Assembly: GCA_002101205.1 (NCBI GenBank)
Contig: LWTM01000077.1
Location: 248,001-312,000 of the forward strand
DNA: 64,000 nucleotides
Source: Cycloclasticus sp. symbiont of Poecilosclerida sp. N
GTDB lineage: Bacteria; Pseudomonadota; Gammaproteobacteria; Methylococcales; Cycloclasticaceae
Reading direction: 5' to 3'
The notes under the pieces are model-generated. The model ran no database searches, had not been told where the DNA came from, and saw nothing but the letters and a program-made list of their open reading frames with translations. Shown here piece by piece: positions 3,218 to 64,000 of the stretch. Positions within the stretch are counted from its first letter, which is position 1, and every line of letters begins with the position of its first letter. A program made the translations under genes and the position numbers.

Positions 3218-3360
3218 AGAGGACCTTTCATTCCTAGAGCGGTTGCTTTCCTAGAGCCGTCAAGCTTTTAGGCCAGATGTGAACAATTGAATATTTCATT
3301 ATTTGTATTGCCTGCCCGCGGCAAGGCGCGCCGCCCAGAAAGCTAAAATGAAAAGGTTGT

Positions 3361-3546
3361 GTGGAACGTGCTAATGGTACTGGTCGTTATGAGTTCTATC
3401 CATTTCATGAGAGAACCTTAACGGTACCAACACTTAACATTGAGCTAGAAAAGTACCCATGGCGTTATAACTACTATCGTCCTCACGATAGTTTGGATTT
3501 GATGACACTAATGGCGTATTATCAACACATCAACGAGGCCGCCTAA
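3361..3546 (+). pseudogene. C-terminal fragment of an IS481-like (DDE, integrase-core) transposase
   Basis: About 61 codons encode the last part of an integrase-core transposase. The VERAN motif containing the catalytic glutamate, the EFYPFHERTL segment and the YNYYRPHDSL motif (the family's YNxxRPHxxL) are all present, but everything upstream is missing. The reading frame ends YQHINEAA-stop. The same ending, with diverged DNA, recurs near position 57733. The rest of 3218-3657 holds no gene I recognise: it contains a short direct repeat TTCCTAGAGC (3230 and 3248) and a GC-rich patch near 3313-3340. The fragment cannot encode an active enzyme. Confidence 0.75.
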
Positions 3547-52662: not shown

Positions 52663-55548
52663 ATGAAGGGTGCGTTTATGCGTGGGGCGAAGCAAAGGTT
52701 AAATCGCTACATTGAAGAAAGTTTGTCGCTAATTCCTGACTCGCTTCATGAAAATGTAGCAACCGTTTGGGAGCAGATAACAGGCGTTGATTTTGAAGGA
52801 AGCGACCAAGCAAACATAAATGCTTTTACGCGAGTTTTAGCCTGTAGCGCGTTCGTGCAAAAACAAGCAATAAAACACCGCCATATGGTTGTAGCGGGTT
52901 TTAGCTTAACGAATACCCAAAAATTACAGTTGCCGGCAAACTTTCACACAGAACTGAAAAACACGATAGCGCAGGCTAAAGATGAAGCGGCGGTTCAGCG
53001 TATTGTGCGGCAATCACGTAATCAAAAAATGTTGCTTATTACATGGGCGCAGCTAACGGGTGCTGACATTAACGATGTTATTTATAGCTTGTCGGAATTG
53101 GCGGACTGTTATATTCAAATAGCGTGTAACTGGACGCATCAACAATTATCTAGCCTCTATGGTGCGCCTAGAGATGCGCAAGGTGCGGAACAAAAACTTA
53201 TTGTTATTGGTATGGGAAAGTTGGGCGCGAAGGAGCTAAACTTCTCCTCAGATATTGATCTTATTTTTTGTTATCCATCAGTTGGTGAAACCGATGGCTT
53301 GCGTTTAATAAGCAACGAAGAGTTTTTTACAAGGCAGTGTCGTTTGATTATTAAGTTATTGGATCAAAATACGGTGGATGGTTTTGTGTTTCGTGTTGAT
53401 ACGCGCCTGCGGCCTTTCGGTGACAGTGGTGCGTTGGTATTAAGTGGCGAAGGCATGGAGATGTATTATCAAAGCCATGCGCGTGAGTGGGAACGGTACG
53501 CGATGATTAAAGCGCGTTTAATTACCGGTAATGAGCGCGATAAAGTGAACCTTACTTCAATGCTACGAGCATTCGTCTTTCGGCGATATTTAGATTACGG
53601 TGTGTTTGATTCTGTCCGAGTGATGAAACGTCAAATTGAAGCACAATTACAGCGTAAAGGAGTTGAGCATAATGTGAAGCTTGGGGTTGGTGGGATTCGA
53701 GAAATAGAATTTATTGGGCAGGCGTACCAGCTGATTAATGGTGGCCGGGATAAGTCATTGCAGCAGCGTGGCATATTGAAAATTTTAAATTTATTGGCTG
53801 AGAAAAACCACATCTCTAAAAAGGCAGCGGATGAATTAACCTACGATTACGCTTACTTGCGGCGTTTAGAAAATCACCTGCAAGAAATAAACGATCAACA
53901 AACCCATGTTTTGCCAAGTAATGAATTAGACCAAGCACGATTATTACTAGCCATGAATGTTAGTAACTGGGAGCTGTTGCTTGATGATGTACGTAGGGTT
54001 ATGGCGCGTGTGCACGCGTATTTTGAGGGTTTGGTGGATTTTTCAAAGGAGCGTCCTGCTGATAAAGGCATTGATTGGCAGGCGTTAGATGCCGAGACAC
54101 TAGAGCAATATCTAGCGTCGAACAATATCGTTGCAAGCCGCGCCACTCAGAACGATATTATTGAGTTTTGCAACAGTTATTCTGTGCGCCAATTAGCAGA
54201 AAAAGGGCGAGAGTACTTCATTCAATTAATGCCGATGTTATTAAATGCATTGTTATTGCAAAAGCCTTGTGAGAAGACGTTGTCCTTGTTGTTGATTATG
54301 TTGGAGAATATTTGTAATAGAACCGTTTACTTGGTGCTGTTGGTAGAAAATAAAGCGGTGTTTGAGCAGTTGGTCCGCCTAGCGATGTTAAGTCCGCTGA
54401 TTATTACGCAAGTAACAAAAACACCTATTCTGCTAGATGAACTCATTGACCCCGCTAGTTTGTATCACCCGCCGACTAAAGAAGCGTTAGAAGCAGAATT
54501 GAAAACAATGCTTTTGGATGTTAAAGGTGATGATATTGAAGGACATATGGAAACGTTGCGCTTGTTTAAACAGGTGAATGTTTTGCGTGTTGCAGCGGCA
54601 GATTTAACGGACGTTATTCCACTCATGGTGGTCAGCGATAAGTTAACCAGCATTGCAGAAGTGGTTTTGCAACAAGCGCTTTTGTTTAGCTGGCAATTAA
54701 TTTGTGCCCAATACGGCGTGCCCGAAGGTGCAAATTCAAAATGTGTTAGTGGCTTCTCAGTCATTGGTTTTGGAAAAATGGGCGGTATGGAACTGGGTTT
54801 TAGTTCAGATTTAGATATTATTTTTCTACATAAAGATGTGGCGATAGATGAAATAACAGTGGGTGATAAGCCTATATCATTGGCTGAATTTTATATGCGA
54901 CTAGGCCGAAAGGTGATTACCTTTATGACAACGCGTACTTTCTCTGGCAGCTTGTATGAAATGGATTTGCGCTTAAGACCGAATGGGAACTCTGGGCTTT
55001 TAGTGACCTCGGAATCTTCGTTTTCAGGGTACCAAAAGAGCCAAGCATGGACATGGGAGCATCAGGCATTAATACGGGCACGTTTTGTGGCAGGCTGTAA
55101 GCAAATGGGTGATTCGTTTAATACCATTCGAGCTGAGGTGTTAGCAAAGCGACGCGACACGGATACCTTGAGGAATGATGTTGTTGTCATGCGAAAAAGA
55201 ATGCGCACCGCTCTGCTGAAAACGCAAGCGGGTTATTTTGATCTAAAACATGGTATTGGAGGTATTGTCGATATTGAGTTTATTGTACAATTCGGTGTCT
55301 TGGTTAATGCGAGTGAACAGCACGCCTTGTTAACGCATACGGACAATGTTCGTTTATTGCTTGAATTGCAGAACATAGGCTTTTTATCTAGCCAGCAAGA
55401 ACAAGGTTTGAGCATCGCCTATAAAACATATCGCAAGGCAGTGCATCATGCGGCGTTGGCACAAACATCAACAATGGTTGGTGAATATTTGGTCGAAGAC
55501 CACGTCCAACTGGTGACATCAGTATGGAACGATATTTTTAATCACTAG
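52663..55548 (+). CDS. glnE: Glutamine synthetase adenylyltransferase/deadenylase GlnE
   Basis: GlnE attaches and removes AMP on glutamine synthetase according to P-II state, tuning nitrogen assimilation. The 961-residue protein contains two nucleotidyltransferase domains: GMGKLGAKELNFSSDIDLIF (N-terminal, about residue 185) and GFGKMGGMELGFSSDLDIIF (C-terminal, about residue 705). Each is followed by a GlnD-PII/GARE-like helical region with GGIREIEF and GGIVDIEF. An ATG at 52678 is an alternative start. ilvE and waaF follow on the same strand, as in many gammaproteobacteria. Confidence 0.96.
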   Translation: MKGAFMRGAKQRLNRYIEESLSLIPDSLHENVATVWEQITGVDFEGSDQANINAFTRVLACSAFVQKQAIKHRHMVVAGFSLTNTQKLQLPANFHTELKNTIAQAKDEAAVQRIVRQSRNQKMLLITWAQLTGADINDVIYSLSELADCYIQIACNWTHQQLSSLYGAPRDAQGAEQKLIVIGMGKLGAKELNFSSDIDLIFCYPSVGETDGLRLISNEEFFTRQCRLIIKLLDQNTVDGFVFRVDTRLRPFGDSGALVLSGEGMEMYYQSHAREWERYAMIKARLITGNERDKVNLTSMLRAFVFRRYLDYGVFDSVRVMKRQIEAQLQRKGVEHNVKLGVGGIREIEFIGQAYQLINGGRDKSLQQRGILKILNLLAEKNHISKKAADELTYDYAYLRRLENHLQEINDQQTHVLPSNELDQARLLLAMNVSNWELLLDDVRRVMARVHAYFEGLVDFSKERPADKGIDWQALDAETLEQYLASNNIVASRATQNDIIEFCNSYSVRQLAEKGREYFIQLMPMLLNALLLQKPCEKTLSLLLIMLENICNRTVYLVLLVENKAVFEQLVRLAMLSPLIITQVTKTPILLDELIDPASLYHPPTKEALEAELKTMLLDVKGDDIEGHMETLRLFKQVNVLRVAAADLTDVIPLMVVSDKLTSIAEVVLQQALLFSWQLICAQYGVPEGANSKCVSGFSVIGFGKMGGMELGFSSDLDIIFLHKDVAIDEITVGDKPISLAEFYMRLGRKVITFMTTRTFSGSLYEMDLRLRPNGNSGLLVTSESSFSGYQKSQAWTWEHQALIRARFVAGCKQMGDSFNTIRAEVLAKRRDTDTLRNDVVVMRKRMRTALLKTQAGYFDLKHGIGGIVDIEFIVQFGVLVNASEQHALLTHTDNVRLLLELQNIGFLSSQQEQGLSIAYKTYRKAVHHAALAQTSTMVGEYLVEDHVQLVTSVWNDIFNH

Positions 55549-55635
55549 GTATGTGGCATTTATTTTTACAAAGGCCTTTGCGCGAAATAGCTTCCGTGAA
55601 AGGTCTTTTACACAGTTAAAAGGTGGGGATTGGTT

Positions 55636-56556
55636 ATGGGGATGGACGATAGAGACGGCGTCATTTGGTTGGATGGTAAGTGGGTCGAGTGGCGTGATGC
55701 CAAAATTCATGTTCTAACGCATACGTTACATTATGGCATGGGTGTATTTGAAGGTGCGCGGGCGTACAAAACCAGCGAAGGCTCCGCTATATTTAGATTG
55801 CACGATCATACTGACCGCTTATTCAGGTCGGCGCATATTTTGAACATGAAAGTGCCTTTCGACAAAGACACACTTAACCAGGTGCAATGCGATGCGGTTT
55901 CAAAAAACAATTTGAACTCTGCGTATTTACGCCCCATGTGCTTTTACGGATCAGAAGGCATGGGTATTCGTGCTGACTGCTTAAAAGTTCACGTGATGGT
56001 TGCTGCATGGGAATGGGGTACGTACTTAGGTGAAGACGGTATTGAAAAAGGCATCCGTATTCGTACGTCGTCGTATATTCGTAATCACGTCAATAGCGTT
56101 ATGTGCAAAGCTAAAGCGAATGGCAATTACATGAACTCAATCCTTGCGCTACAAGAAGCTATTTCTTGTGGTTATGATGAAGCGATGTTATTAGACCATG
56201 AAGGTTATGTTGCTGAAGGCAGTGGCGAGAACATATTCCTTGTACGTAACGGTAAATTAATTACGCCAGATTTAACGTCGGCGCTAGAGGGCATTACCCG
56301 TGAAACGATTTTTCAACTAGCTGAAGAATGTGGCCTGCAAGTTGTAGAAAAACGCATCACACGTGATGAAGTTTATGTGGCAGATGAAGCCTTCTTTACT
56401 GGCACAGCAGCGGAAGTAACGCCCATTAGAGAAGTGGATGACCGTATGATTGGTAATGGTGGTCGTGGCCCAATTACTGAGCGTTTACAAACAATGTATT
56501 TTGATGCGGTTCATGGGCGGTCTGCGAAGCATAGTAGTTGGTTAACCCACGTTTAG
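55636..56556 (+). CDS. ilvE: Branched-chain amino acid aminotransferase
   Basis: IlvE interconverts leucine, isoleucine and valine with their keto acids using PLP. Starting at ATG 55636 gives 306 residues. Class IV aminotransferase features are LHYGMGVFEGARAYKT, the catalytic lysine Lys160 in CKAKANGNYMNS, EGSGENIFLVRNGKL and FFTGTAAEVTPI. An ATG at 55642 or TTG at 55630 could also be used. It lies between glnE and waaF, a conserved order. Confidence 0.95.
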   Translation: MGMDDRDGVIWLDGKWVEWRDAKIHVLTHTLHYGMGVFEGARAYKTSEGSAIFRLHDHTDRLFRSAHILNMKVPFDKDTLNQVQCDAVSKNNLNSAYLRPMCFYGSEGMGIRADCLKVHVMVAAWEWGTYLGEDGIEKGIRIRTSSYIRNHVNSVMCKAKANGNYMNSILALQEAISCGYDEAMLLDHEGYVAEGSGENIFLVRNGKLITPDLTSALEGITRETIFQLAEECGLQVVEKRITRDEVYVADEAFFTGTAAEVTPIREVDDRMIGNGGRGPITERLQTMYFDAVHGRSAKHSSWLTHV

Positions 56557-56568
56557 TTTAAAAAGAAC

Positions 56569-57582
56569 GTGAGTTCAACATACCGCATACTTATTGTTGG
56601 CCCTTCATGGGTCGGTGATATGGTCATGGCACAAAGCCTGTTCATGGCGTTAAAACAGCAGCATAAAAACTGCTCGATTGACGTATTAGCACCCGAATGG
56701 TCGCTGGCGATTATGGAACGTATGCCCGAGGTAAGAAAAGCGATTGTTATGCCGTTAGGACATGGACAGTTCGACTTTAAAGGTCGTAAAGCCGTAGGTG
56801 AAAAACTACGGGTAGAGGAGTACGACGAGTCTATCGTTTTGCCTAATTCGTGGAAATCAGCCTTAACGCCTTACTTCGCAAACATTCCAAAACGTACAGG
56901 TTATTTGGGCGAATTGCGTTGGGGTTTATTAAATAATTCACGCAGGCTAAATAAAAACTTATTAACTAAAACCGTACAACGTTTTGTTGCACTAGCATCC
57001 GCAGCTAATACCATTGTGCCCGTTATTCCGCAACCACGACTATTAATCGATCCTGCCAGTGTTGATGTGGCAAAGGCATCGTTTAATTTGGAGTTAACCG
57101 AAGCTAAGGTACTTGGCTTATGCCCAGGGGCAGAATATGGCTCTGCTAAACGCTGGCCGCAAGAGCATTACGCAGCGGTAGCAAAAAAGGCGCTGGAGAA
57201 CGGTTGGCAAGTGTACTTATTTGGTTCAGCTAAAGATGAACCTGTAACGGCAAAAGTTAATGAATTAGCCGGGGGGGCTTGCCGTGATTTTGCGGGTAAA
57301 ACAAACTTAACTGAGGCACTAGATTTAATGTCTTTATGCGATGTTGTTATCAGTAACGACTCGGGGTTAATGCACGTTGCAGCGGCGCTTAATATTAAAA
57401 CAATCGCCTTGTATGGTTCATCAGACCCTAATTTCACACCACCACTGCACCCCGATGCGGATGTGATTACCTTAGGTTTAGAATGCTCGCCATGTTTTAA
57501 GCGCGAATGCCCGTTAGGTCATTTAGATTGCCTGACGAAAATCTCTCCAGAGCGAGTTCTTAGTTTAATGGATGTGGCGTAG
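56569..57582 (+). CDS. waaF: ADP-heptose:LPS heptosyltransferase II
   Basis: WaaF adds the second heptose to the LPS inner core. The 337-residue GT9 enzyme begins at GTG 56569 and has ILIVGPSWVGDMVMAQSLF, GLCPGAEYGSAKRWPQEHYA and SNDSGLMHVAAALN. The C-terminal SSDPNFTPPLHP and CFKRECPLGHLDCLTKISPE match WaaF rather than WaaC. It follows ilvE by 12 bases. Directly after its stop the sequence is no longer normal: a heptosyltransferase fragment and insertion-sequence tail follow. Confidence 0.95.
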   Translation: MSSTYRILIVGPSWVGDMVMAQSLFMALKQQHKNCSIDVLAPEWSLAIMERMPEVRKAIVMPLGHGQFDFKGRKAVGEKLRVEEYDESIVLPNSWKSALTPYFANIPKRTGYLGELRWGLLNNSRRLNKNLLTKTVQRFVALASAANTIVPVIPQPRLLIDPASVDVAKASFNLELTEAKVLGLCPGAEYGSAKRWPQEHYAAVAKKALENGWQVYLFGSAKDEPVTAKVNELAGGACRDFAGKTNLTEALDLMSLCDVVISNDSGLMHVAAALNIKTIALYGSSDPNFTPPLHPDADVITLGLECSPCFKRECPLGHLDCLTKISPERVLSLMDVA

Positions 57583-57732
57583 CATTTAACGGCAGCTTGC
57601 GGCACACCTGCGGTCACCCTTTACGGCTCAACCAATGCGGTGTTAACAGGCACATCAAAGGTTTCTCCTGCGTGTTACCCAACACTTAATGCAGATGATG
57701 TTTGGCAAGCACTAACGAGTAAGGTGGCGGAT
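57583..57732 (+). pseudogene. 3' remnant of a waaC-like heptosyltransferase gene
   Basis: Immediately after the waaF stop, 71 bases (57583-57653) match the intact waaC at 60689-60759 with about 90% identity, encoding HLTAACGTPAVTLYGSTNAV. The frame then continues as KVSPACYPTLNADDVWQAL, equivalent to the end of a heptosyltransferase (intact WaaC has QPACYQSLPPQLVLNKLQAL), with about 28 residues missing in between. It therefore comes from a second waaC-like copy that is not the parent of the duplicate at 59356. The frame runs on into the insertion-sequence end at 57733. Confidence 0.7.
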
Positions 57733-57785
57733 TATCAACACATCACAGAGACCGCCTAAATGTCCTAGTGTAGTGAACCCGACCA
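57733..57785 (+). mobile_element. Right-end remnant of the IS481-like element
   Basis: About 50 bases match 3522-3574, the end of the transposase fragment near rplM: both read ATTATCAACACATCA, then GCCGCCTAAATGTCCTA-like sequence and AGTG-ACCCGA. It encodes the transposase C-terminus (YQHITETA-stop) and probably part of the terminal repeat. No other part of the element is present, so it is a scar. Confidence 0.65.
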
Positions 57786-57855
57786 CTTTTAGGCTTAAGT
57801 TAGGGTTTGGTGAATAATTTAAGCAATACCAAACTGTATTTTTTATTGAAAAGGA

Positions 57856-57891
57856 GGATGTTGCCCACTAAAATGGTAGCATCCCTTTTTT
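57856..57891 (+). terminator. Rho-independent terminator upstream of the symporter gene
   Basis: GGATGTTGCC (57856-57865) pairs with GGTAGCATCC (57875-57884) with two G-T pairs across a 9-base loop, followed by C and six T. It lies 37 bases before the symporter ATG, so it may stop transcription from waaF or serve as an attenuator for the symporter. No known riboswitch fold was recognised. Confidence 0.65.
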
Positions 57892-57927
57892 GAGCTTTGA
57901 ACCCTTATTTTTTAAACAGGTATTAAT

Positions 57928-59352
57928 ATGATTTTAGCTTCATTTCTTGCTTTTTTAGCAATTATTTTATTCGTCGGGCTTTATTCTAAGCGATTTAGCA
58001 AACAAACTACGGATGATTACCTGATTGCTAGTGGCAATATTCCAGTTTGGCAGACGGTGTTGTCAGCTTTGGCATCTGCTTATAGTGGTTTTATGTATAT
58101 TGGCTTGATTGGCTATACCTATACTCAGGGCGTTTCTGGTATTTGGTTGATGGTGTTTTGGATTTTTGGTGAATTTTGTGTGTTCATTTATCTGCCTAAG
58201 AAAGTTAGCCAAGTATCTCAACGCAGAAACCTCAATAGTTATAACGCCTTATTGGCAAATTATTGGGGGCAAAACCACACGCTGGTTAAAAAAAGTGCAG
58301 CAATTATTACCCTAATATTTTTATCCATTTATGCCGCCGCTCAATTTAATGCTGCGGGAAAGGCGTTACAAAGCACGCTACTCTGGTCGCCAATAATAGG
58401 CTCTGTGTTTACCTATTTTGTGGTGTTAGCCTACTCTTATGTAGGCGGTATTCGTGCCTCTATTTGGACCGACAACATTCAATTTGTCATTATGGTTGTC
58501 TCTATCGCTATTTTAGTTTGGTTGAGCTTGGATGCGATTGGCGGTTGGTCTATGTTTGTTGATAAGTTACACAACAACCCCGTGGCCTATACGCAGTGGT
58601 TTCCTGAATCAATGGGCAGTCTGTTTTTTATTATCTTATTTTTATTAGGCTGGGTTGGTGGCGGCTTTGGCATTGCTGGGCAGCCCCATATTGTTGTGCG
58701 TTTTATGGCAATGAAAAAGACCCGCAAATATAAACAAATTTTATTCGGTTATTACGCGCTTGCCGTTATCTTTACTGGCTTGTGCTTATTGTCTGCTTTA
58801 TTGGCAAAAGTGTATTTTGCTGGTACATTAGCCGCCGACTTTGACACCGAGACAACGTTACCAACCTTAGCCACTGCTGTGTTGCCTGCTATGTTAGTTG
58901 GTCTAATGCTCTCAGCAATCCTCTCAGCCATTATTTCCACAGCGGACTCACAAATATTAAGTTGCTCTGCTGCTTTAGGTACTGATTTACTAAAACCCAA
59001 AGCCACAGACAAAGAAAGCCTCAGACAAAATAAATTTAGCACTGCTTTAGTGGCAACTTTTGCTTTATTAATAGCACTTTATGGTGGGGAATCAGTCTTT
59101 ACGCTAGTTATTCTCGCCTGGTCTGGCTTAGCATCTGCCTTTATGCCACTACTTGTTATCCAACTTATGGGGCACAAACCCTCACAAACCCTCAGTATTA
59201 CTATAATGCTATCCGGTTTATTGGCTGCTATTATCTGGCGTATGACTGGGTTAAACAGCCTAACTTATGAGGCAATTATCGGTATCGCTGTCGGCTTTAT
59301 AGTGTTTTATGTTGTTAAAATATTATCACCTGCTGATAAAGCAAAAGAATAA
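57928..59352 (+). CDS. Sodium:solute symporter (SSF family, PutP-like)
   Basis: The 474-residue protein has about 13 membrane helices and SSF signatures: TTDDYLIASGNIPVWQTVLSALASAYSG after the first helix, YVGGIRASIWTDNIQF, GWVGGGFGIAGQPHIVVRFMA, and the Na+-site segment LSAIISTADSQILSCSAALGTDL. It most resembles proline/Na+ symporters, but the substrate cannot be settled. It sits between remnants of LPS genes, on the same strand, behind a terminator. This suggests it entered by insertion or recombination rather than belonging to LPS synthesis. Confidence 0.87.
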   Translation: MILASFLAFLAIILFVGLYSKRFSKQTTDDYLIASGNIPVWQTVLSALASAYSGFMYIGLIGYTYTQGVSGIWLMVFWIFGEFCVFIYLPKKVSQVSQRRNLNSYNALLANYWGQNHTLVKKSAAIITLIFLSIYAAAQFNAAGKALQSTLLWSPIIGSVFTYFVVLAYSYVGGIRASIWTDNIQFVIMVVSIAILVWLSLDAIGGWSMFVDKLHNNPVAYTQWFPESMGSLFFIILFLLGWVGGGFGIAGQPHIVVRFMAMKKTRKYKQILFGYYALAVIFTGLCLLSALLAKVYFAGTLAADFDTETTLPTLATAVLPAMLVGLMLSAILSAIISTADSQILSCSAALGTDLLKPKATDKESLRQNKFSTALVATFALLIALYGGESVFTLVILAWSGLASAFMPLLVIQLMGHKPSQTLSITIMLSGLLAAIIWRMTGLNSLTYEAIIGIAVGFIVFYVVKILSPADKAKE

Positions 59353-59355
59353 AAG

Positions 59356-59672
59356 GGTGAAAATACCGAAAGCTTACAAACAGAATTTGATTGCTCGCCC
59401 TGTTTGAAAAAAGAGTGTGCTTATCGCCAGCCTTCATCTGTTCAGCCAGCTTGTTATCAATCATGACCACCACAACTAGTATTGAATAAGCTACAGGCAT
59501 TAATGAAACGAATATTGTGAAAGAAATAGATAGCTGGGTGAAAGCCCCTGCTACACCACTTAATATTAAATTCAGTGAAGCTGAGCTTCAGTTAACTCAA
59601 AAACTTAGACACCCAGCAGGAAAACGGTTGACTTGTTTAGCGCAGTGGAAAAGTAAGGCTGTTACCGCTTAG
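59356..59672 (+). pseudogene. Duplicated fragment: waaC 3' end and kinase-gene 5' end
   Basis: These 317 bases are a diverged copy (about 92% identical by eye) of 60764-61080, which spans the last 52 codons of waaC and the first 55 of the tandem-kinase gene. It begins 4 bases after the symporter stop. The waaC frame is broken by a premature TGA (GCTTGTTATCAATCATGA), and the kinase part starts ATTGTGAAAGAAATAGAT without its ATG (intact ATGAATATTGCGAAA) and ends at TAG in place of an AAG codon. It cannot make either protein. The following 230 bases up to waaC hold nothing recognisable. Confidence 0.85.
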
Positions 59673-59902
59673 ATTCATTTATAATAACCTAAAAGGAATC
59701 GGAGACATCCGCCACATCAAAAATTTCCAAATAGTTGTAAAAACCGTTGAATATTACAATAACAAAAAAAGTCAATCCCGCTGTTGGGCATATAGCCTCA
59801 GCATAGAAAAGTAAAAAATTACTGAATGTGGCTTAGACACTCTACGATTTTAGTTGCGCATCACAGCGTACTCTCAAATAATATTAAGCGAATGGTTTTG
59901 TA

Positions 59903-60919
59903 ATGAATGTTTTAATTATTAAAACGTCGTCACTAGGTGATGTTATCCATACTCTGCCCGCATTAACCGATGCGGCAAAAGCAATCCCCGATACTTCATT
60001 CGACTGGGTGGTTGAAGAGTCATTTCAAGATATCCCTTTATTGCATCCGAATGTAAATAGGATTATTCCCGTATCTATACGCCGCTGGCGCAAAAACTTG
60101 TGGAAACACAAGACAGATATTAAGGCGAGCATTAAGGATATTCAGCAAGAGAGCTATGATGCGGTTATTGATGCGCAAGGGCTGATAAAAAGCGCCTTTT
60201 TTACGCGTTATGCTAAGGGTGAGAAATACGGGCTTTCCAAAACAAGCTGTCGAGAGCCGTTAGCGGCAATGGCGTACCAACACAAAATAGACGTGCCAAA
60301 AGGGCAACATGCGATTACCCGCGTAAGACAATTATTTGCACAAAGCTTAGATTACGACTTTTCTGCGGATACGCTTTCGTATGGTTTGAGAAAAACTGAT
60401 TTTTTACCACAAGAATCGTTGCAAAAGCCGTACTTAATATTCCTGCATGGCACAACATGGGCAAGCAAACATTGGCCAAATGAGTATTGGAAATCGCTGG
60501 TTTCATTAGCGACAAAGGCTGGTTTTAACGTGTATTTACCCTGGGGTAATGAACAAGAAAAGACACGTGCAGACAACTTGGCTGATGTATCAGCAAAAGC
60601 CCGTGTGTTGCCGCGTTTAGGTATTAAAGAACTATCAGCAATACTGATGCACGCAAGCGGCGTAATAGGTGTGGATAGTGGTTTGGCGCATTTAACGGCA
60701 GCTTGTGGCACACCAGCAGTCACACTTTACGGGTCAACCAATGCGGTACTAACAGGCACCTTAGGTGAAAATACCGAAAGTTTACAAACAAAATTTGATT
60801 GCTCGCCCTGTTTGAAAAAAGAGTGTGGTTATCGCCAGCCTTCATCTGTTCAGCCAGCTTGTTATCAATCATTACCGCCGCAACTAGTATTGAATAAACT
60901 ACAGGCATTAATGAAATGA
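59903..60919 (+). CDS. waaC: ADP-heptose:LPS heptosyltransferase I
   Basis: WaaC adds the first heptose to Kdo2-lipid A. The 338-residue GT9 enzyme has the start VLIIKTSSLGDVIHTLPALTDA, YDAVIDAQGLIKSAFFTRYA, FLHGTTWASKHWPNEYW, and GVDSGLAHLTAACGTPAVTLYGSTN. The DCSPCLKKECGYRQPS segment near the end carries the cysteine cluster seen in many members. Its stop overlaps the kinase-gene start by 4 bases. Confidence 0.95.
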   Translation: MNVLIIKTSSLGDVIHTLPALTDAAKAIPDTSFDWVVEESFQDIPLLHPNVNRIIPVSIRRWRKNLWKHKTDIKASIKDIQQESYDAVIDAQGLIKSAFFTRYAKGEKYGLSKTSCREPLAAMAYQHKIDVPKGQHAITRVRQLFAQSLDYDFSADTLSYGLRKTDFLPQESLQKPYLIFLHGTTWASKHWPNEYWKSLVSLATKAGFNVYLPWGNEQEKTRADNLADVSAKARVLPRLGIKELSAILMHASGVIGVDSGLAHLTAACGTPAVTLYGSTNAVLTGTLGENTESLQTKFDCSPCLKKECGYRQPSSVQPACYQSLPPQLVLNKLQALMK

Positions 60920-62349
60920 ATATTGCGAAAGAAATAGATACCTGGGTGGAAACCCCTGCTACACCACTTAATATTAAATTCAGTGAAGCTGAGATCCAGT
61001 TAACTCAAAAACTTAGACACTTAGCAGGAAAACGATTGACTTGTTTGGCGCAGTGGAAAAGTGAGACCGTTATTGCTAAGTTTTTTTATGGTGCGCGTGC
61101 TCAGCAGCAGGTTGAAAAAGAATCTGCTGTGCTGAAAGAATTAATAAAAAAAGGCATTCGCACACCAAAGTTTTTAGCTATGTATGAGAAAGCAGGTTGC
61201 TCAGTGCTGCTGATTGAATACATAGCAGATGCCATATCACTTGCAAAGTGGTTGAAAGATGAACCTGAGCAGTCAGCGTTTGAAAAGACAATGTCGAAAA
61301 CAACGACATTAATGCTTGAGTGCCACCGTGCTGGTTTTGAAATAAAGGATCCACACTTAGATAACCTCTTAATTAGAAAGGATGATGTATTTATCATTGA
61401 TGCAGGTGATATTACGCAATTTAGCGAACCATTAAACAACGAGCGTTCGCTACAAAACATGGCGCTTTTATATGCGCAGCTTCCAGTCACACAAGATGTT
61501 ATTACTTTTCAAGTCTTGAAAAACATCTTGCTAGAAAAGAGTGATCTTGAAGCGCCAAATGAAAAAGAGTGGCAACAACGCTTAATTCGTCAACGGCGCT
61601 GGCGACAGAAAAAGTTCATTGATAAAAAAGTCTTTAGAGACTGTACGGCTTACCATTGCGAACAGAGTAGCTCAAGATTTCTGGTGGCTAAACGCGATTT
61701 CTTTACCGACGAAGTAGCGCAAGCATTAACGAATCCAGATATGCTCATCGAAAAAGGCACCCTGTTAAAAAATGGCAACACAGCCACTGTAGCAAAGGTT
61801 GAGATAGGCGATAAAACGTATGTTTTAAAACGATACAACATAAAAAAACCAATACACTCTTTTATCAGAGGCTTTATGTGGTCGAGAGCGGCTGTCTCGT
61901 GGCGAAACGGCTTGCTATTAGAAATGCTGGGTATTCCAACAGCTAAGTCATATGTAATGATTGAAGGACGTTGGGGAGCGTTGAGAAGGCGTTCTTATCT
62001 ATTGTCGGAGTTTATTAGTGCGCCAACCGCTTGGGATATTTTTGAAGACAAACAGTTTAATGAGCAAAATAGAAGTGATTGGGCTAAAAAAATATCTGAA
62101 TTATTTATGCTTTTGAAACGCAATCAAGTGAGCCATGGGGACTTGAAGGCGCAGAATATACTTTGTCATACGAAAACCGCCGCTCTTATTGATCTAGACG
62201 GCTTACAGTCAACATTAGTGTATAAAAAATTCCTGCAAAGATATAAAAAAGATATTCAACGGTTCCAAATAAGTTGGCCATCAAAATGGCGTGAGAACCC
62301 ATATTTCGCTGAATATGTGTTAGCGTTGTTAAATTCGGAAGCCCATTAA
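60916..62349 (+). CDS. Protein with two LPS-kinase-like domains in tandem
   Basis: The 477-residue protein seems to contain two kinase folds of the Kdo/heptose kinase type. The first half (about 1-190) has a D-x4-N pattern at Asp145-Asn150 (KDPHLDNLLI) and a metal-binding FIIDAGD; the histidine before Asp is replaced. The second half (about 230-477) has VLKRYNIKKP, catalytic SHGDLKAQNIL (His407, Asp409, Asn414) and ALIDLDG. Kinases such as WaaP, KdkA and InaA have one domain. Coupled to waaC by a 4-base overlap, it probably phosphorylates the inner core; whether both domains act is unknown. No transmembrane segment is seen. Confidence 0.78.
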   Translation: MNIAKEIDTWVETPATPLNIKFSEAEIQLTQKLRHLAGKRLTCLAQWKSETVIAKFFYGARAQQQVEKESAVLKELIKKGIRTPKFLAMYEKAGCSVLLIEYIADAISLAKWLKDEPEQSAFEKTMSKTTTLMLECHRAGFEIKDPHLDNLLIRKDDVFIIDAGDITQFSEPLNNERSLQNMALLYAQLPVTQDVITFQVLKNILLEKSDLEAPNEKEWQQRLIRQRRWRQKKFIDKKVFRDCTAYHCEQSSSRFLVAKRDFFTDEVAQALTNPDMLIEKGTLLKNGNTATVAKVEIGDKTYVLKRYNIKKPIHSFIRGFMWSRAAVSWRNGLLLEMLGIPTAKSYVMIEGRWGALRRRSYLLSEFISAPTAWDIFEDKQFNEQNRSDWAKKISELFMLLKRNQVSHGDLKAQNILCHTKTAALIDLDGLQSTLVYKKFLQRYKKDIQRFQISWPSKWRENPYFAEYVLALLNSEAH

Positions 62350-62533
62350 ATAAATGCCGTTATGCCGATGTCTCAAGATTCCAAGCGTCGCACTATAACG
62401 GGCTGAGGCTTGCTTGGTTTTCTGGCTATTATTTTCTGATGAGTATTCGGGAACAGTGGCGGAACAAATTTCAGAACACTGTCGTAGCTTGTGACGGAGT
62501 TAGTTAATAAATTTAAACGTTAGGAATCTTAGT

Positions 62534-63532
62534 ATGTTCAATAATAAAACAATTCTTATTACAGGAGGCACGGGCTCATTTGGCAATACCTTTGTGCCAA
62601 TGACGCTTGAAAAATACAATCCTAAAAAAATCATCATCTACTCACGTGACGAGATGAAACAATGGGAAATGGCTAAGAAATTTGAAGGTGATTCTCGCGT
62701 GCGTTTTTTTATTGGCGATGTGCGAGATAAAGAACGGATTTATCGTGCGTTAGATGGCGTTGATTACGTGGTGCATGCCGCGGCAACAAAAATAGTACCT
62801 ACCGCTGAATACAACCCATTTGAATGCGTAAAGACGAATATCAATGGAGCAATGAATTTAATTGATGCTTGCATTGATAAAAACATCAAAGGAGTGGTCG
62901 CGCTCTCAACCGATAAGGCTAGCAGTCCAATTAATCTTTATGGGGCAACAAAGCTTGTTTCAGATAAATTATTTGTAGCCGGTAACTCCTATTCAGGCTC
63001 GCACCTTACCCGCTTTGCTGTTGTACGTTATGGCAATGTTATGGGTTCACGCGGCTCGGTCATTCCCTTTTTTATGTCAATTAAAGATAAAGGTGTTTTG
63101 CCAATAACAGATGAGCGAATGACGCGCTTTATGATTTCACTGGAAGACGGCGTAGATTTGGTTTGGCATGCCTTTCACGATATGGAAGGCGGGGAAGTTT
63201 ATGTAAAAAAAATCCCGTCAATGAAAGTAACAGACCTTGCAAGAGTTATTGCGCCAGAAGCCAAACAGGAAATAATAGGTATTCGCCCCGGTGAAAAACT
63301 CCACGAAAAGATGATTAGTGCCGAAGATGCAGCCTATACCTATGAATACCCTGAGTACTTTAAAATCCTACCGACGATTAATAACTGGGGCGCAGATGAA
63401 GTACGTATTAAAGATGGGGTAAAGGTAAAAGAAGGTTTTATATATGCCAGTGATAGCAATAATGATTGGATGAGTGAAGATGATTTTCAAAAGTGGCTTA
63501 GTTCTAATGAAACTAAAATAGGGAGGATTTGA
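62534..63532 (+). CDS. pseB: UDP-GlcNAc 4,6-dehydratase (inverting), PseB-type
   Basis: PseB starts pseudaminic acid synthesis by dehydrating and inverting UDP-GlcNAc with bound NADP. The 332-residue short-chain dehydrogenase/reductase has the nucleotide motif TGGTGSFGNTF, HAAATKIVPTAEYNPFECV, the YxxxK pair in INLYGATKLVSDK and the C-terminal GIRPGEKLHE. It lies 184 bases after the kinase gene and 64 bases before a cytidylyltransferase gene. This suggests a cluster making a nonulosonic or related sugar for surface glycans or flagellin. The transaminase pseC, expected next, is not here. Confidence 0.9.
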   Translation: MFNNKTILITGGTGSFGNTFVPMTLEKYNPKKIIIYSRDEMKQWEMAKKFEGDSRVRFFIGDVRDKERIYRALDGVDYVVHAAATKIVPTAEYNPFECVKTNINGAMNLIDACIDKNIKGVVALSTDKASSPINLYGATKLVSDKLFVAGNSYSGSHLTRFAVVRYGNVMGSRGSVIPFFMSIKDKGVLPITDERMTRFMISLEDGVDLVWHAFHDMEGGEVYVKKIPSMKVTDLARVIAPEAKQEIIGIRPGEKLHEKMISAEDAAYTYEYPEYFKILPTINNWGADEVRIKDGVKVKEGFIYASDSNNDWMSEDDFQKWLSSNETKIGRI

Positions 63533-63596
63533 AAATGAATAGGAAGTTGAAGGGTGGCTACGGCATGAAAAATTTATCTTTTAGGAGTAACTGATT

Positions 63597-64000
63597 ATGA
63601 AAATAATTGTTCCATTACAAACTTGCTCAACACGGATTCCCCAGAAGAATATTCGTCCCTTCTATAAAGGGGATTCTTTGTTTGATATAAAGGCAAAGCA
63701 GATCCTCGAGTTTGAATCTCCAGAGAATGTTTATATATCTTCCGAAAATGAGTCCGTTAGTAAGTTATGTGATGTATATGGGTTTAATTTTTTGTTACGT
63801 GATAAGTCTTTAACTGGTAATACAGTCTTCCAACCCGATCTAGTTAAAGCATTAACAGACCCTATTCCAGGTGATGATGACATCATGTGGATTCAAGTAA
63901 CATCACCTCTTTTTAATCAATTTTCTGAAGCATTGAAGGAATGGAAGAAAGTGAGAAACGAGTTTGACTCACTAGTTGCGGTAAAGGCATTTAAAGGACA
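63597..64000 (+). CDS. Sugar cytidylyltransferase, NeuA/PseF-like (5' part)
   Basis: The gene runs off the right edge; 134 codons are visible. It begins MKIIVPLQTCSTRIPQKNIR, equivalent to the nucleotide-binding start of CMP-sialic/pseudaminic acid synthetases (usually ARxGSKRIPxKN), though here the glycine-rich part reads LQTCSTR. QVTSPLFNQFSEALKEW fits the QxTSPL motif and FDSLVAV the DS-x-hydrophobic strand. Enzymes of this family activate nonulosonic acids with CTP. The ribosome binding site is TAGGAG 12 bases before the ATG. Confidence 0.78.
   Translation, partial: MKIIVPLQTCSTRIPQKNIRPFYKGDSLFDIKAKQILEFESPENVYISSENESVSKLCDVYGFNFLLRDKSLTGNTVFQPDLVKALTDPIPGDDDIMWIQVTSPLFNQFSEALKEWKKVRNEFDSLVAVKAFKG

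Follow-up and report, generated by a model that had tools for sequence, protein, structure and literature searches.

The interval between waaF and waaC in the present genome is best read as a scar left by module replacement at the lipopolysaccharide (LPS) core locus, in which a type II module gave way to a type I module, insertion sequences (IS) decayed and a symporter gene was gained. The probability of this reading is put at about 0.65. The present genome (G000) is a 1.9-Mb assembly in 77 contigs that is 98% complete, and the window, the whole stretch of 64,000 nucleotides that was analysed, sits on a 312-kb contig. The genes are ordered glnE, ilvE, waaF, the changed interval, waaC, a kinase gene and pseB. 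The parts of the locus are listed here in window coordinates.

56569 to 57582, + strand: waaF, heptosyltransferase II, intact; closest to that of genome G012 (89% nucleotide and 94% amino acid identity)
57583 to 57653, + strand: waaC stump, first part (waaC nucleotides 787 to 857), beginning directly at the waaF stop codon
57654 to 57730, + strand: waaC stump, second part, the 3' end of a G012-type (type II) waaC
57725 to 57789, + strand: right end of an IS481-like element, with the C-terminal end of its transposase
57846 to 57893, + strand: hairpin resembling a terminator, with a T-run, ahead of the symporter gene (from folding)
57928 to 59352, + strand: sodium:solute symporter (SSF) gene, intact, 474 aa
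59356 to 59672, + strand: truncated copy of a type I waaC 3' end and kinase 5' end
59751 to 59856, + strand: degraded 3' end of an IS3-family transposase gene
59903 to 60919, + strand: waaC, heptosyltransferase I, intact, with a type I 3' end
60916 to 62349, + strand: kinase gene, 477 aa, type I, sister to the kinase gene of genome G016

Two gene modules after waaC

The genomes of the genus carry one of two modules downstream of waaC. In type I, the kinase gene follows waaC directly, and in type II the module consists of a Mig-14-like gene, a PIG-L gene and a different kinase gene. Type I is found in G016, G007, G015, G017, G004, G003, G001, G013 and the present genome, and type II in G012, G009, G008 and G011, which are also the only genomes with the PIG-L gene. 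In G012, the full order is waaC, Mig-14-like, PIG-L, kinase, O-antigen ligase and pseB. The two sides of the changed interval in the present genome have different sister genomes, as waaF groups with that of type II G012 (99/99) and the kinase gene with that of type I G016 (98/94). Two marks of module exchange are found here: relatives differ in their gene content at this position, and neighboring genes have conflicting relationships.

A preliminary description of the locus, made from its sequence, regarded it as a record of insertion or recombination at an LPS locus. This view is upheld by the restriction of the symporter to the present lineage and by the gene order in relatives, since in all nine genus mates with the two genes on a single stretch, waaC sits immediately next to waaF. 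Three further genomes (G016, G011 and G013) have waaC and waaF on different contigs with other DNA upstream of waaC, so waaC was moved or separately gained in these.

The waaC stump and the junction copies

The stump starts with waaC nucleotide 786 or 787. Its first part is 90% identical to the present waaC and to that of G016, and 86% identical to that of G012; two substitutions in the first 72 bp are shared with the present waaC only. After about 72 bp, 81 bp are skipped in frame and the stump proceeds with a waaC 3' end of the G012 type. Here its sequence (SPACYPTLNADDVWQALTSKV) follows the form of G012 (SPACYETLNADDVWQALTGKM) rather than that of the present waaC (QPACYQSLPPQLVLNKLQALMK), and the last 65-82 bp match only the G012 waaC tail, at 80-83%. 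The stump then continues in frame into the final codons of an IS481-like transposase and the right end of that element. The fragment had initially been described as about 90% identical to the waaC 3' region, which is accurate for the first 72 bp or so; the next 80 bp or so match the waaC tail of the other allele. When the type II region of G012 (5041 bp) is compared with the present genome, the sole match is 65 bp long and falls inside the stump (57663-57727), and the rest of the assembly is without a type II module. Judged by these matches, nothing of a type II waaC survives in the genome except the stump.

The present waaC is about equally similar to the G012 and G016 genes over its first 900 bp and only G016-like in its last 120 bp or so, while the 230 bp upstream of it have no match to the region upstream of the G016 waaC. 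The kinase gene that follows encodes two kinase-like stretches: an N-terminal one closest to Kdo kinase and a C-terminal one with a match to Kdo/WaaP. Because waaF goes with G012, the kinase with G016, the present waaC has a 3' end of the G016 form and the stump holds a 65-bp tail of the G012 form, the reading preferred here is that type I replaced type II.

The direct repeats of the preliminary description are real. Base-by-base alignment of 59356-59672 with 60764-61080 gives 24 differences in 317 positions, or 92.4% identity (92.2% over 320 bp), in agreement with the value of about 92% first given; 59356-59655 and 60764-61063 are 94% identical, and the starts of the repeats are spaced by 1408 bp. 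Positions 57582-57653, at the head of the stump, are 90% identical to 60688-60759. This degree of similarity is far beyond chance, and neither repeat region matches elsewhere in the present genome, apart from each other. The downstream copy starts 3 bp past the symporter stop codon, and both of its reading frames are damaged, that of waaC by a premature TGA and that of the kinase by a start codon changed from ATG to ACG. With G016 as the outgroup, 12 changes fall on the broken junction copy and 9 on the intact copy, so both have been altered since they separated.

The preliminary description further proposed that a waaC-kinase junction had been duplicated and split around the symporter gene, and this part is not supported. 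The G012-form codons of the stump reach the end of waaC and overlap the waaC part of the downstream copy; since the two overlap, they are not two halves of one junction. It is better to read the stump as the replaced waaC allele and the downstream piece as a separate truncated copy of the present allele. A modified form of the split would place a 393-bp type I junction copy (57583-57653 plus 59356-59672) beside waaF and have it interrupted by a 1.7-kb insert that brought in the symporter gene along with the IS481 tail and a waaC tail of foreign origin. The two pieces correspond to 60688-60759 and 60764-61080, so that they nearly meet, and the identity of each to the present copy is 90-92%. This explanation is unlikely, however, in view of the first piece running in frame into the G012-type waaC 3' end, where short sequences match at the joint (GGCACATCA/GGCGCATCA), and of the borders showing no insertion-type target duplication when inspected by eye. 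Moreover, the joint of the stump is accounted for by nothing more than an 81-bp deletion within a single waaC, so no insert is needed. The breakpoints are near-coincident (equivalents of 60759 and 60764), and the split reading is possible for the first 72 bp only.

A local tandem duplication of the resident waaC-kinase pair followed by decay, with no allele replacement, is very improbable as the whole explanation. It accords with the broken copy being 92% identical to its intact counterpart but only 82.5% to G016 and with the evenly shared changes since the split, but it leaves both the G012-type waaC tail and the differing sister genomes of waaF and the kinase unexplained. Least credible is an assembly artefact joining pieces from different strains or loci. 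The draft is in 77 contigs, and other contigs contain some long repeats that are exact, but the copies at this locus diverge by 8-10%, which is too much for easy collapse or confusion, and the stretch lies inside a 312-kb contig.

Transposon remnants and the proposed course of the replacement

The IS481-like tail noted earlier (57725-57789) has about 11 further matches in the genome, with identities of 82-91%, and the C-terminus encoded by a longer copy matches Pfam rve_3. A search with this right end gives no match in the 17 genus mates. The preliminary description lacked a second transposase remnant, of the IS3 type, which lies between the junction copy and the intact waaC (59751-59856) and is 70-77% identical to copies on contigs C69, C72 and C76. 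Both types of remnant consist of transposase C-terminal sequence repeated at unrelated places of the genome, and the better copies of both elements have C-terminal transposase sequences with rve_2/rve_3 matches. Unlike IS481- and IS3-family transposons, the remnants at this locus are 3' ends only (about 65 bp of the IS481-like element and 106 bp of the IS3 element), with no both-ended element and no whole transposase gene, and neither transposase could be made from the locus. The two ends flank the changed stretch, which is counted in favor of the module replacement.

About a dozen right-end remnants of the IS481-like element are scattered in the genome, for example at window positions 3352-3543; they are about 100-330 bp long and 78-92% alike. 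All appear to be 5'-truncated and no complete copy is seen, a picture that may be biased by the use of the right end in the search. Contig C69 carries two IS3-family copies 11 kb apart, near 4.6 kb and near 15.6 kb, and both are flanked by the same open frames.

In the proposed module replacement, the ancestral arrangement would have been that of G012, with a type II waaC and its cassette (Mig-14-like, PIG-L and a different kinase) behind waaF. The downstream type II cassette would then have been lost and the type II waaC cut to a stump by deletions, one of them the 81-bp in-frame deletion between the near-repeats GGCACAT and GGCGCAT. The IS481-like element may also have reduced this waaC before only its tail was left. 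Heptosyltransferase I would now come from a type I waaC-kinase pair akin to the one in G016, and the place of joining may be marked by the IS3 tail and the truncated extra copy of this pair's junction. The SSF symporter gene, intact and with a terminator in front, would have been gained in the same interval. We infer this order of events, and the route was probably homologous recombination within waaC combined with illegitimate joins at IS ends. Several points weigh against the replacement. By sequence identity, the first 72 bp of the stump are slightly nearer to the present waaC and that of G016 (90%) than to that of G012 (86%); the G012-type tail is short; the ilvE tree lacks resolution and provides no firm species backbone; and no intermediate strain is known.

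Events of this kind are already known and ordinary, and the present instance is unusually legible. The lipooligosaccharide (LOS) classes of Campylobacter jejuni and C. coli exemplify modular exchange of LPS/LOS core loci, in which, as here, conserved inner-core heptosyltransferase genes border a region that is moved by recombination and varies in gene content between relatives (PMC8970381). Unlike in Campylobacter, the variable module here begins inside the waaC 3' end, and the replaced allele appears to have left a stump, along with IS tails and an unrelated transporter gene. A Kdo-kinase-like gene directly after waaC is also seen in the waaC-kdkA pair of the Aeromonadaceae (wa region 3), which is reported to be invariant in Aeromonas (PMC5372535). 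In the present genus, by contrast, a longer module can take the place of the pair, and the kinase, at 477 aa, has two kinase-like stretches. If correctly read, the locus makes visible what goes, what stays behind and what slips in when an LPS-core type changes. A 65-bp pseudogene end would suffice to identify the lost allele, and the ends of waaC, being of two kinds, could serve as markers for tracking module switching across the genus.

The symporter and its surroundings

The gene first described as a Na+/solute symporter encodes an intact SSF protein of 474 aa, and the terminator in front of it is substantiated by folding (dG -20.7 kcal/mol, z -4.3); the hairpin is not listed by the pattern scan, which is limited to loops of 8 nt, its own loop being 9 nt. 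Rfam gives no match within 55500-62600. The protein has a full-length match to PF00474 (159 bits against a cut-off of 22.8, residues 31-417) and, like PutP-type SSF symporters, has PutP (TIGR02121) as its best NCBIfam model. Unlike PutP, it scores 206.8 bits, below the equivalog cut-off of 515.5, and it is also below the cut-offs of the other NCBIfam transporters listed. Among the listed gene neighbors of relatives that are 37-41% identical, no consistent partner that would name a substrate is noticed. The gene is probably expressed.

Relatives of the symporter in the 17 genus mates are at most 41% identical and occur in G014 and G005, in the latter among different neighbors. No relative carrying the symporter between waaF and waaC without remnants was found. 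The nearest protein found (63% identical) comes from one Ca. Thioglobus MAG, while 82 other genomes of the Ca. Thioglobus family have no comparable match at E 1e-60 and the best other match in 369 genomes drawn from the class is 41%. In the tree, the symporter of the window pairs with the Thioglobus protein with full support. Between these two genes, dN is 0.30 and dS is 2.15, values that are no more than compatible with purifying selection, dS being saturated. The DNA upstream of the symporter gene at the Thioglobus locus has no homology outside the gene. Plasmid records were considered as a source and are uninformative, with matches only to about 29% identity.

The transporter had been called foreign-looking. 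Its GC content bears no mark of this, as the value of 40.4% compares with about 40-45% in the flanking intact genes and 40.2% at the Thioglobus locus; its distribution does. The symporter is clearly a lineage-specific gain and probably arrived by horizontal transfer, and missing sampling could be an alternative source of the wide gap to its other relatives. It is a speculative and rather unlikely idea that the gene passed between distant marine gammaproteobacteria sharing a habitat or host (the present lineage and the family of Ca. Thioglobus) and that the decaying LPS-core stretch offered it a harmless place to land. If true, LPS module switching would be an entry point for unrelated cargo genes.

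Beyond the kinase gene, pseB opens an apparent nonulosonate cluster of the pseudaminic-acid type (62534-63998) that continues past the end of the window, and pseB of G012 lies at the corresponding place. Elsewhere in the present genome, 3968 bp are 100% identical between contigs C76 (19500-23500) and C75 (171000-175000), which is either a recent duplication or an assembly duplicate.
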